A stretch of 8,499 nucleotides of DNA from Conexibacteraceae bacterium (lineage in GTDB: Bacteria; Actinomycetota; Thermoleophilia; Solirubrobacterales; Solirubrobacteraceae), in contig WQWK01000080.1 in NCBI GenBank assembly GCA_009785395.1, positions 1 through 8,499 of the forward strand, read 5' to 3'. Each line of letters starts with the position of its first letter. Within the stretch, counting starts at the first letter, position 1. This document shows positions 2,735 to 8,499 of the stretch, piece after piece. The notes under the pieces are model-generated. The model ran no database searches, was not told the origin of the DNA, and saw nothing but the letters and a program-made list of their open reading frames with translations. Both the position numbers and the translations under genes were made by a program.

Positions 2735-2755
2735 CGACTTGATTGGTGGTATGGT
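2727..2755 (+). promoter_or_regulatory. Candidate promoter of the methionine operon
   Basis: TTTATA (2727-2732) and TATGGT (2750-2755) are spaced by 17 bp; each matches the housekeeping sigma consensus at 4 of 6 positions. Transcription would begin near 2762, next to the ATG at 2764, giving a leaderless or near-leaderless mRNA, consistent with the lack of a Shine-Dalgarno there. The operator palindrome covers the -35. Confidence 0.42.
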
Positions 2756-2763
2756 CGCGGTGG

Positions 2764-3882
2764 ATGACCGATACGACGTACGCGTACGAGACAGCTGAGG
2801 CGATCGCCCAGGAGGATGGCCGGGCCGTCACCCGGGAGGGCGGCCAGGCGCTGGCCGCGGGACTCGCCGCCGGACTGGGCCGCCGCCTTGGCTTCGAGGA
2901 GCTCGTCGGGGCGCTGCGCGCCGTCGCCGAGCCGACGCGCCTGCGGCTCGCGGCGCTGCTCGGCCGCGAGGAGCTGACGGTCACCGAGATCACACGCGTG
3001 GTGGGTCAGAGCCAGCCGCGCACCAGCCGGCACCTGCGGCTGCTGGTGGACGCCGGGATCCTCGAGCGCGCGCCCGAGGGCGCCCACGTTTACTACCGGC
3101 TGGCCGAGGACAGCCCGGCGGCCGAGCTCGCCTACACCCTTGCGGCGCTCGCGTCCGAGACGGACGCGACGCTCGCGGCTGACCTCGCCGCCCTGGATCG
3201 CGTGCGCGAGGCCCGTCGTGAGGCTGCGATCGCCTACCGCAACGCCCACGCCCTGGATTTCGAGGCGCTGCGCGGCCTATACGTCGGCGAGGCCGCAGTC
3301 GAGCGCGCGCTGCTGAACCTGCTCGTCGGTGAGGGGCCGATCGGCCGCCTGCTCGACATCGGCACCGGGACCGGCCGCATGCTCGAGCTGCTGGCCCCGC
3401 ACAGCGCGCAGAGCATCGGGCTCGACATCGACCATGAGATGGTGGCGCTCGCCCGTGCGGCCCTGGGCGACGCGCAGGGCTCGAGCGTCGCCGTGCGCCA
3501 CGGGGACGTGCACCGCCCGCCGTTCGACGCGGGCAGCTTCGACGTCGCCGTCATGCACCACGTGCTGCACCTGCTCGACGAGCCGGGCGAGGCGATCGCC
3601 GACGCGGCACGGCTGCTGCGCCCCGGCGGCCGCCTGGTCGTGGCCGACTTCGCGGCGCACGACGTCGAGCAGCTGCGGGAGCACCACGGGCACCGGCGGC
3701 TCGGGATCACCGACGAGGAGATGACGAACTGGGCGCAGGCCGCCGGCCTGGTGTGCGAGAGCGAGTGCTCGCTGCCGCCGTCCTGCGAGGAGGAGCAGCT
3801 GACCGTGCGGCTGTGGCTGCTGCGCGCTGCGGCCGGTGGGGCGGCCGGCGAGCCGCCCGCCGGAGCAGGAGGATCGCAATGA
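2764..3882 (+). CDS. ArsR-type regulator fused to a SAM-dependent methyltransferase domain
   Basis: This 372-residue protein has an ArsR-like winged helix at about 46-114 (LRAVAEPTRLRLAALLGREEL, recognition helix QSQPRTSRHLRLL, wing EGAHVYYRL). A class I methyltransferase domain follows (about 190-353), with motif I LLDIGTGTGR (196-205), acidic D221 after strand 2, HGDVH (246-250) and LRPGGRLVV (285-293). Fusions of this type commonly precede metF/metH genes in alphaproteobacteria. They resemble SahR-like regulators, which sense S-adenosylhomocysteine, so a SAM/SAH-responsive repressor of this operon is inferred; true methyl transfer is also possible. The metal-binding CxC of classical ArsR sensors is absent. 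About 45 residues precede the winged helix, longer than usual. The ATG at 2764 is preferred over the in-frame TTG at 2743, which lies upstream of the likely transcription start. The stop overlaps metF as ATGA. Confidence 0.85.
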   Translation: MTDTTYAYETAEAIAQEDGRAVTREGGQALAAGLAAGLGRRLGFEELVGALRAVAEPTRLRLAALLGREELTVTEITRVVGQSQPRTSRHLRLLVDAGILERAPEGAHVYYRLAEDSPAAELAYTLAALASETDATLAADLAALDRVREARREAAIAYRNAHALDFEALRGLYVGEAAVERALLNLLVGEGPIGRLLDIGTGTGRMLELLAPHSAQSIGLDIDHEMVALARAALGDAQGSSVAVRHGDVHRPPFDAGSFDVAVMHHVLHLLDEPGEAIADAARLLRPGGRLVVADFAAHDVEQLREHHGHRRLGITDEEMTNWAQAAGLVCESECSLPPSCEEEQLTVRLWLLRAAAGGAAGEPPAGAGGSQ

Positions 3883-4742
3883 TTTCGTTCGAGGTCTTTC
3901 CGCCGCGCACGCCCGAGGGCGAGCTGCGGCTCTGGGACACGCTCGACCGGCTCGCGCCGCTGCAGCCGGGCTTCGTGTCCGTCACCTGCGGCGCCGGCGG
4001 CAGCGCCAAGGACGCGACGATCGGCGTGCTGAACGCGATCGCGCAGCGCACGACGTTGACGATCGCGGGCCATCTCACCTGTGTCGGGCGCTCGCGCGCG
4101 GACACGGCGGCTGACGTCGCCCGCTACTGGGAGGCCGGCGTGCGCCACATCGTCGCCCTGCGCGGAGACGTGCCCGCGGCGGTCGCGGGGGCGGAGGCGA
4201 ACGGGCGGGCGCGGTTCGAGCCCCACCCGGATGGACACCGCAGCTCGATCGAGCTGGTCGCCGCGATCCGGCGCCAGGCGCCGGTCGAGATCAGCGTCGC
4301 CGCCTACCCAGAACCGCACCCGGACTCGGTGTCGGCGAGTCACGACCTCGATGTGCTCGCGCGCAAGGCCGACGCCGGCGCGACCCGCGCGATCACGCAG
4401 TTCTGCTTCGACACCGACGCGATCGTGGCACTGCGTGAACGCATGGCGGGTGCCGGCATCGGCCTACGGGTCGTGCCGGGGATCCTGCTGGCCACGGACT
4501 TCGACGGCGTCGCGAGGATGGCGGCGCGCTGCGGCGCGAGCCTCCCCGACTCACTGGCCGCGCATTTCCGCGGGCTCGAGGAGGATCAGACGACGCGCAA
4601 GCTGCTGGGCGCGATCGTTGCGGCCGAGCAGGTCGAGCGCCTGCGGCGCGAGGGTTTCGAGGACTTCCACTTCTACACGCTCAACCAGGGCGAGCTCGCG
4701 CCGGCCGTGTCCCGGCTGCTCGGCGTGAGGAGCGCGGCATGA
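3879..4742 (+). CDS. metF: 5,10-methylenetetrahydrofolate reductase
   Basis: This 287-residue protein (E. coli MetF is 296) reduces 5,10-methylene-THF to 5-methyl-THF using FAD, supplying the methyl donor for the methionine synthase encoded just downstream. The start ATG at 3879 has AGGAGG (3867-3872) 6 nt upstream and overlaps the regulator's stop as ATGA; the frame remains open further upstream. Family motifs are SFEVFPPRTPEGE (E5 matches the catalytic Glu of the family), FVSVTCGAGGS (35-42 region, usually VTYGAGGS; here Cys replaces Tyr at 37), HLTCVG (65-70), ALRGDVP with the flavin-contacting Asp at D97, TQFCFD (Q174), VPGILL (199-204) and HFYTLNQ near the end. All key residues appear present, so it should be active. 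The last codons (RSAA, stop) are the first copy of the junction repeat. Confidence 0.95.
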   Translation: MISFEVFPPRTPEGELRLWDTLDRLAPLQPGFVSVTCGAGGSAKDATIGVLNAIAQRTTLTIAGHLTCVGRSRADTAADVARYWEAGVRHIVALRGDVPAAVAGAEANGRARFEPHPDGHRSSIELVAAIRRQAPVEISVAAYPEPHPDSVSASHDLDVLARKADAGATRAITQFCFDTDAIVALRERMAGAGIGLRVVPGILLATDFDGVARMAARCGASLPDSLAAHFRGLEEDQTTRKLLGAIVAAEQVERLRREGFEDFHFYTLNQGELAPAVSRLLGVRSAA

Positions 4743-4756
4743 GGAGCGCGGCATGA
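4739..4756 (+). CDS. Mini-ORF 1 (MRSAA) in the metF-metH junction
   Basis: ATG at 4739 opens a five-codon frame, MRSAA, ending at TGA 4754-4756. The Shine-Dalgarno GAGGAG (4727-4732) lies inside the metF end, and the ATG overlaps the metF stop as ATGA. It was created by tandem duplication. It may be translated in a relay of ribosomes, or may be a by-product without function; the peptide sequence repeats the MetF C-terminus RSAA. Confidence 0.35.
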   Translation: MRSAA

Positions 4757-4770
4757 GGAGCGCGGCATGA
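4753..4770 (+). CDS. Mini-ORF 2 (MRSAA) in the metF-metH junction
   Basis: A second copy of the five-codon frame starts at ATG 4753, 6 nt after GAGGAG (4741-4746). It ends at TGA 4768-4770, overlapping the metH start at 4767. Together with mini-ORF 1 it makes a chain of three stop-start overlaps between MetF and MetH. Translation is possible from the signals seen but unproven. Confidence 0.35.
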   Translation: MRSAA

Positions 4771-5848
4771 CGACCGACCACGAGCACGACGCCCAGCGCG
4801 AGGCCCGCATCGAGGCCCTGAAGCACGCCGCCACCGAGCGGATCCTGGTGCTGGACGGCGCCTGGGGCGCCCAGATCCAGGAGCGCAGGCTCACCGAGGA
4901 GGATTTCCGCGGCGAGCGCTTCAAGGACCATCCGCTGCCGCTGCGCGGCAACAACGACCTGCTCTGCATCACGCGCCCGGACGTGATCTCCGATCTGGTC
5001 AGCGAGTACCTCGAGGCCGGCGCTGACATCGTCTCGACCAACACCTTCAGCTCGACCGCGATCGCCCAGGCCGACTACCGGATGGAGTCGGTCGCGCGCG
5101 AGCTGAACCTGGCGGGCGCCCGGATCGCGCGCACGGCCGCGGACCGCTTCACAGCCGCCGACCCGTCCCGGCCGCGCTGGGTCGCGGGCTCGATCGGCCC
5201 CACCAACCGCACGCTCTCGATGTCGGCCGACGTCAACGACCCCGGCGCGCGCGCGGTCGACTTCGACCAGGTGTATGACGCCTACCGCGAGCAGGCGATC
5301 GCGCTGCACGACGGCGGCGTCGACCTGTTCCTGGTGGAGACGATCTTCGACACGCTCAATGCGAAGGCGGCGCTGAAGGCGATCCTCGACCTGCAGGACG
5401 AGGGCCGCGCCGAGCTGCCGATCTGGATCTCGGGGACGGTCACCGACACCTCCGGACGGATCCTCTCGGGCCAGACCGTCGACGCCTTCTGGATCTCGGT
5501 GCGCCACGCCGAGCCGTTCGCGGTCGGGCTCAACTGCGCCTTCGGGGTCGAGCAGCTGCGGCCGTTCGTGGCGCAGCTGTCGGGCGCTGCCGACACGCTG
5601 ATCTCGGCGTATCCCAACGCCGGACTGCCGAACGAGCTCGGCGAGTACGAGGAGGGGCCGGAGATCATGAGCACGCAGCTGCGCGAGTGGGCGCAGGCCG
5701 GTCTTGTCAACATCGTCGGGGGATGCTGTGGCACGACCCCCGCACACATCCGCGCGATCGCGGAGGCCGTGTCCGGAATCACGCCGCGCCAGGTCCCGGA
5801 GGTCGCTCCGACGCTGCGGCTGTCCGGTCTGGAACCATTTGCAGCGGC

Positions 5849-5852
<4 letters not shown>
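4767..5852 (+). CDS. metH: Methionine synthase, homocysteine-binding (zinc) module as a separate protein
   Basis: This 361-residue protein corresponds to the N-terminal homocysteine S-methyltransferase domain of cobalamin-dependent methionine synthase. Motifs are [12 protein letters not shown] (28-37), [13 protein letters not shown] (85-97), [11 protein letters not shown] (141-151), [15 protein letters not shown] (186-200), [11 protein letters not shown] (221-231) and GLNCAFG (254-260). [11 protein letters not shown] (318-328) comes last. C257, C320 and C321 are the expected zinc ligands that activate homocysteine. The protein ends [11 protein letters not shown], exactly where full-length MetH continues into the folate domain, so the enzyme is split at a domain boundary. 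The partner is the next gene. The start ATG at 4767 has GAGGAG 6 nt upstream in the third junction repeat. The stop overlaps the next ATG. Confidence 0.93.

Positions 5853-8499
<2,647 letters not shown>

Follow-up and report, generated by a model that had tools for sequence, protein, structure and literature searches.

The 8,499 nucleotides analysed here, referred to as the window, carry an ArsR-methyltransferase open reading frame, metF, metH1 and metH2 in what looks like an operon (Table 1), the last gene extending beyond the window end. Methionine synthase is split in two genes, metH1 holding the homocysteine domain and metH2 the pterin, B12 and activation domains. Two papers already describe a split MetH (PMC5764234, PMC7857596), and the same split was recognized in the loci L001, L002, L004 and L005, where metH1 stops without an ATGA overlap. 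Two of the three operon junctions are single ATGA overlaps (3879-3882 and 5849-5852) and, judged from the sequence, the genes seem to be coupled at every junction. Upstream of the overlap between the ArsR-methyltransferase frame and metF there is an AGGAGG core. A 15-nt tandem repeat, TGACATGGTTGCTGC (2.1 copies, 5866-5897), follows right after the metH2 start and reads in frame as DMVAA repeats, being a second duplication at a coupled start of the operon that also holds the metF-metH1 array; a 9-nt repeat, CGGCGGACT (5.8 copies, 205-256), lies in an open frame reading repeated ADS, and a further tandem array occupies 2059-2123. With an unchanged threshold, TRF listed between 0 and 11 rows for stretches of comparable size from L001-L005. 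The open reading frame at 715-1914 combines a rubrerythrin-like N-terminus with a VIT1-type membrane domain.

Table 1. Genes, repeat units and mini-ORFs of the putative metF-metH operon (window coordinates).
Feature	Position	Strand	Remarks
ArsR-type regulator + methyltransferase ORF	2743..3882	+	TGA overlaps metF ATG (ATGA 3879-3882)
metF, methylenetetrahydrofolate reductase	3879..4742	+	PF02219 E=8.6e-71; ends GVRSAA inside unit 1
Repeat unit 1	4728..4741	+	SD AGGAG, 6 nt, ATG; encodes final metF codons
Repeat unit 2	4742..4755	+	exact copy of unit 1
Repeat unit 3	4756..4769	+	exact copy; supplies metH1 SD and ATG
Mini-ORF 1, MRSAA	4739..4756	+	ATGA overlaps with metF stop and mini-ORF 2
Mini-ORF 2, MRSAA	4753..4770	+	stop overlaps metH1 ATG
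metH1, homocysteine S-methyltransferase part	4767..5852	+	PF02574 E=5.5e-97
metH2, pterin-binding, B12-binding, activation domains	5849..8497	+	PF00809, PF02607, PF02310, PF02965 (read from 5687)

The triplicated module between metF and metH1

The third junction consists of a tandem array of three exact copies of the 14-nt unit AGGAGCGCGGCATG (4728-4769), each of which comprises a Shine-Dalgarno (SD) core, an ATG and an overlapping TGA, with the spacing AGGAG-6 nt-ATG in all three units. This confirms the original prediction of three exact 14-bp units, each a complete coupling module; its span of 4726-4770 was right to within two bases, the units proper occupying 4728-4769 and the A at 4770 closing the final ATGA. 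The junction had been described as joining metF to metH, which is correct on the metF side, while the downstream partner is metH1 only, the first of two genes. ATGA stands at 4739, 4753 and 4767: metF terminates at the first with its TGA at 4740-4742, and metH1, the protein of which begins MTTDHEHDAQ, starts at the third. Two copies of the 18-nt sequence ATGAGGAGCGCGGCATGA (MRSAA plus stop) lie between the two genes and form the two mini-ORFs, linked by ATGA overlaps, that had been predicted. The ATGs of the array occupy all three frames, as was also claimed (coordinates modulo 3: 2, 1, 0), and after the array metH1 is read in the metF frame again. Tandem Repeats Finder extended the array leftwards to 4721 by an incomplete, degenerate unit, CGGCGTG, and reported 3.6 copies with a score of 93. 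The claim of three equal SD sites was borne out by an identical predicted pairing with the 16S tail, -7.8 kcal/mol at 4726, 4740 and 4754. The junction thus has the 4-nt sharing of stop and start and an SD at a usable distance, as in ATGA overlaps, and the metF stop is separated from the metH1 ATG by 24 nt.

A chance repeat was ruled out, the probability of an exact 14-nt triplet being about 10^-9 (given this G+C and counting every position and all periods 5-50), and so was a coding repeat within one long frame, because the array holds the metF stop in its first unit and the metH1 start in its third. An exact-copy search of the window found these three copies of AGGAGCGCGGCATG and no fourth; with no extra exact copy in the window and with units that vary among the listed junctions described below, a mobile or dispersed element was judged unlikely. 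No clear RNA switch was recognized either: the three-unit form (predicted -44.0 kcal/mol in 120 nt) and the one-unit form (-34.4 in 92 nt) fold alike for their length.

That the repeat arose during assembly is highly improbable. The window is a single contig, which would allow such an error; against it, a usual read would span the 42-nt array, the MetF cluster comprises two member sequences on two contigs (one of the two was examined), and a seven-rung array of the same kind lies elsewhere in a 7.68-Mb contig.

By virtue of the array metH1 stands in the metF reading frame with one TGA between them (4740-4775). Direct reading from 4740 gives TGA GGA GCG CGG CAT GAG GAG CGC GGC ATG ACG, and the extra 28 nt might in principle act as a cassette that yields a MetF-MetH1 fusion upon readthrough of this TGA; any array adding 28 nt would give the same framing, and we consider such a function very doubtful.

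Relatives of the junction and origin of the array

The best non-self MetF matches were 74-76% identical (P0002-P0010), and the named ones in the list came mostly from Solirubrobacteraceae MAGs, one being called Acidobacteriota. In the aligned C-termini ERSAA was found in 13 of 31 relatives and a related ER/EQ..AA tail in most others. In MetF of this contig, which ends with GVRSAA, about five residues (RPxxE) are missing ahead of RSAA, so the metF end underwent a further change that simple duplication leaves unexplained. All five Solirubrobacterales-type loci (L001-L005) have GGAG within the last metF codons, hence an SD-like core is written inside metF there as well.

Counting units in relatives had been suggested as a check: L003 holds exactly one unit, AGGAGCGCGGCATGA, found among 138 loci only there and in its refetched twin L083, and no orthologous junction with two or three units was present among the 85 compared. 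The set of metF stops consisted of 95 loci (80 + 6 + 8 + 1, five of the six duplicating L001-L005; L148, which ends before the stop, was dropped), 85 of them with metH1 adjacent, and these 85 include the five duplicates. An exact tandem repeat with a period of at least 10 within 60 nt of the metF stop occurred in none of the 95, and repeats of only 6-9 nt in 14. The absence of the repeat from the compared junctions, together with the one-unit relative, indicates, as far as sequence comparison can tell, that the triplication is derived and that an ordinary coupling junction was expanded. The simplest path, suggested by what is seen at other loci, would be two 14-bp duplications of a single module, and the expansion probably proceeded by slippage.

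Start-stop ladders at other junctions

The architecture is not unique to metF-metH1: such start-stop ladders, with repeat units as rungs, recur at unrelated operon junctions of other actinobacteria, where units of 11, 14 and 17 nt were seen. Pfam searches with 20 flanking proteins from 11 loci confirmed both partners for a murI-like racemase and rph (L179), nuoF-like and nuoG (L186), nuoC and nuoD (L184), rplB and rpsS (L189, missed by the automatic junction rule), rimM and trmD (L357), ribBA and ribH (L349) and two ABC permeases (L352). One flank was identified at L183 (V-ATPase AC39-type subunit), L187 (Rieske/QcrA) and L362 (CofC-like), and L360 gave a weak BNR match only. The layout nearest to that of the window is L186, where the upstream gene ends at the first of three 17-nt rungs and the downstream gene starts at the third. 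In the six-rung ladder of L106 the units have partly diverged and all rungs are still ATGA or GTGA, while L353, L355 and L365 carry leader-type ladders without a close upstream gene.

The pattern ATGAGGN{5,11}RTGAGGN{5,11}RTGA matched 91 of 399 genomes of the class of G004 (Conexibacter, Thermoleophilia) and at least 127 of 396 genomes of its phylum, Actinomycetota. Matches were counted as near-identical ladders when their periods were equal and their spacers 75% identical or more; the class had 17 such loci (seven of 14 nt, four of 17, two of 16, three of 12 and one of 15). A control motif of the same letters that is neither start nor stop, TGGAAG, also matched 91 of the same 399 genomes; 14 of its 15 near-identical rows had periods divisible by three, as is expected inside coding sequence. 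A period not divisible by three was seen in 13 of 17 start-stop loci against 1 of 15 control rows (14 loci; Fisher p=8e-5), a difference that ties short out-of-frame arrays to the start-stop motif rather than to general slippage. The class count used 131 of 135 listed rows (two near-copies and two rows of one array were left out), the phylum count 129 rows among the matches listed and the control count 108 rows, overlapping rows and near-copies being omitted from the latter two; two of the 15 near-identical control rows lie in one contig. All p-values are exploratory.

Ladder positions were scored in 45 near-identical loci, 17 from the class and 28 among the phylum matches listed. A junction was called strict when one rung held the end of an ORF of 70 codons or more and a second such ORF began on that rung or on one further along. 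Among the 17 strict junctions the period left the remainders 2, 1 and 0 on division by three in the ratio 15:1:1, unlike what would be expected if the periods 11-17 were used equally (p=1.5e-4 against 3/7); with periods not divisible by three the excess of remainder 2 gave p=0.003 against 3/5. With 100- and 150-codon rules the ratios were 13:1:0 and 10:1:0. With a remainder of 2 (11, 14 or 17 nt) each mini-ORF closes on the next rung, whereas with a remainder of 1 it would overrun the next start out of frame. Non-junction near-identical ladders from genomes gave 11:4:13, and their frame bias differed from that of junctions with Fisher p=0.17 (0.34 and 0.63 with the 100- and 150-codon rules). 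In exact-period scans of viral contigs remainder 2 outnumbered remainder 1 by 14:2 at junctions and by 75:22 elsewhere. Since non-junction and viral ladders lean the same way, these comparisons are only suggestive of selection on the reading frame. The ORF rule itself is crude: L189, L181, L180 (at a contig end) and L361 were scored as non-junction though junction-like, L358 qualifies although its two ORFs share a rung, and the ORFs behind L106 and L350, about 70-120 codons long, may be due to chance. The viral collection was set aside as independent support, to which it adds little, most of its variable-pattern matches being of low complexity or outside junctions; many of its 14-nt arrays are heptamer repeats (60-codon rule).

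Changes in rung number could be followed at the permease junction L352, a ladder of seven rungs of AGGAGTCAGCGATG, for which 21 genomes of its genus were searched and 20 fetched loci were read. In its nine closest orthologues (L369-L377) seven rungs were present in one, the query itself, two in L371 and L374, and one in L372, L373, L375 and L376; in L370 an in-frame expansion of 12 nt makes the downstream protein longer, and in L377 TTGA replaces ATGA. Rung number therefore changes in evolution at one orthologous junction, from one to two to seven within a genus. The original prediction held that copy number could change by slippage; the change was seen at this other locus, while slippage as its cause is presumed. 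L371 and L374 are sisters (92.5% identity over the upstream flank, support 1.00), so two rungs seem to have persisted through the separation of two species. In both, the SD of the first copy is lost, with AGCAG or AACAG instead of AGGAG, which suggests redundancy of the extra copies. L384, a more distant locus, carries two copies of the module CGGATACGGAAGGAGGGGCGCCGATGA separated by about 100 nt; they lie at a permease junction around the upstream stop (position 1904 in the oriented locus) and represent the same kind of duplication with a longer unit.

A proposed relay and its relation to known systems

We propose, with a probability of roughly 70%, that a single SD-plus-ATGA module was tripled by two duplications, most likely through replication slippage, and that ribosomes are passed on through the array to metH1. 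The starting point would have been an ordinary coupled metF-metH1 junction with one module, and two 14-bp tandem duplications would have produced three copies. The junction tolerates such an expansion because the metF stop remains in the first copy and an intact SD still precedes metH1 in the last. As 14 modulo 3 is 2, every added ATG begins a frame of five codons whose stop lies in the following ATGA, so that a ribosome ending metF, or entering at any of the three SDs, might be relayed through the mini-ORFs to metH1 and not be lost out of frame.

According to PMC10666635, hardly any reinitiation is left in E. coli and Haloferax when stop and start are about 20 nt apart, and the last 15 nt of the upstream gene are enough for coupling. 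With a gap of 24 nt a direct handover from metF to metH1 should be weak, and either the relay or fresh initiation is needed. Along the mini-ORFs every step follows a frame of five codons and consists of a -4 overlap, which makes reinitiation along the array plausible by analogy; the statement that ribosomes have to reinitiate up to three times was too strong, fresh initiation at the last SD being equally possible. A ribosome footprint exceeds 14 nt, the distance between adjacent starts of the array, so neighbouring sites could hardly be used simultaneously. A modest effect on MetH1 is expected.

Two other accounts of the array have to be weighed. It might be a neutral scar of slippage, with mini-ORFs that are hardly used and metH1 initiated afresh at the third SD, which is as strong as the other two; the additional tandem arrays of the window and the decayed first-copy SD of L371 and L374 speak for this, though the spread of TRF rows in related stretches qualifies the first point. 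Recurrence at coupled junctions and the 15:1:1 frame split speak against it, although non-junction ladders lean likewise (p=0.17), and we regard the scar as possible but rather unlikely. Less likely still is an adaptive tuner, which would be added to the slippage and relay and not exclude them: rung number would be a fast-mutating dial for the MetH1:MetF ratio, with three copies kept for a better ratio. The variation at L352, the two-rung state common to two sisters, and ladders joining partners of the same complex or pathway (e.g. nuoC-nuoD, nuoF-nuoG, rplB-rpsS, ribBA-ribH) agree with such a dial. It is opposed by the SD loss in both two-rung sisters, as expected for redundant extras, by the identity of the metF-metH1 units, which gives no sign of long selection, and by the single rung in four of the nine closest L352 orthologues.

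The relay can be set beside several known arrangements. Known cases of slippage in tandem repeats at ribosome-binding sites change the spacing between SD and start; the ladders share with these a repeat number that can change at an initiation region, but they keep the spacing and add whole initiation-termination modules. In bicistronic designs a short translated leader carries the next SD inside it, and its stop overlaps the next start. These are engineered and single, whereas the metF-metH1 array is natural and repeated. Such leaders are mentioned in PMC12548453. Termination-reinitiation coupling at ATGA (-4 nt) overlaps is described in PMC10666635 and PMC6728339; every rung has this 4-nt stop-start overlap with an SD, and the 15 nt that suffice for coupling are close to one mini-ORF. 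The junctions described there are single; here the junction is repeated with minimal ORFs between. How ribosomes pass between close genes is not firmly established, RNA unfolding and reinitiation both being considered (PMC12548453).

The assertion that no duplicated coupling module had been described was wrong, on account of the other ladders found here and of the MIRUs. As stated in PMC12548453, which cites Supply et al. 1997, MIRUs are seemingly mobile repeats that insert at start codons, with an internal ORF coupled at -4 nt. At senX3-regX3 one strain has three 77-bp copies and another two of 77 bp and one of 53 bp (PMC4213456), and MIRU-based variable-number typing is in use (PMC4128351). 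MIRUs and ladders have in common repeats at operon junctions and an internal ORF coupled at -4 nt (MRSAA in the metF-metH1 array); the tandem copy number of MIRUs differs between strains, and for the ladders one, two and seven copies were seen at L352. They differ in that MIRUs measure 77 or 53 bp and are apparently mobile, while ladder units have 11-17 nt (14 bp in the metF-metH1 array), consist of the local SD and ATGA and differ between the listed junctions, with three exact copies in the window. From their sequences the ladders look like the MIRU working principle in a far shorter, locally duplicated element.

In open-licence literature on tandem coupling modules, minicistrons and slippage at ribosome-binding sites no account of such short ladders was found, only the statement on MIRUs. 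We tentatively suggest, as an idea still to be doubted, that short ladders might be a recurrent, undescribed class of actinobacterial cis-element: coupling junctions would expand by slippage, the lasting expansions would be those of 11, 14 and 17 nt, in which all mini-ORFs close on the following rung, and the relay would set a heritable, reversible ratio of neighbouring operon proteins. Orthologous junctions with one, two and seven rungs offer a ready-made natural dose series: downstream output would be expected to drop step by step if a constant fraction of ribosomes were lost at every rung, but not with fresh entry at the last SD. The ladders show how operon stoichiometry could drift by slippage with both proteins untouched, and gene callers should expect minimal ORFs of this type.
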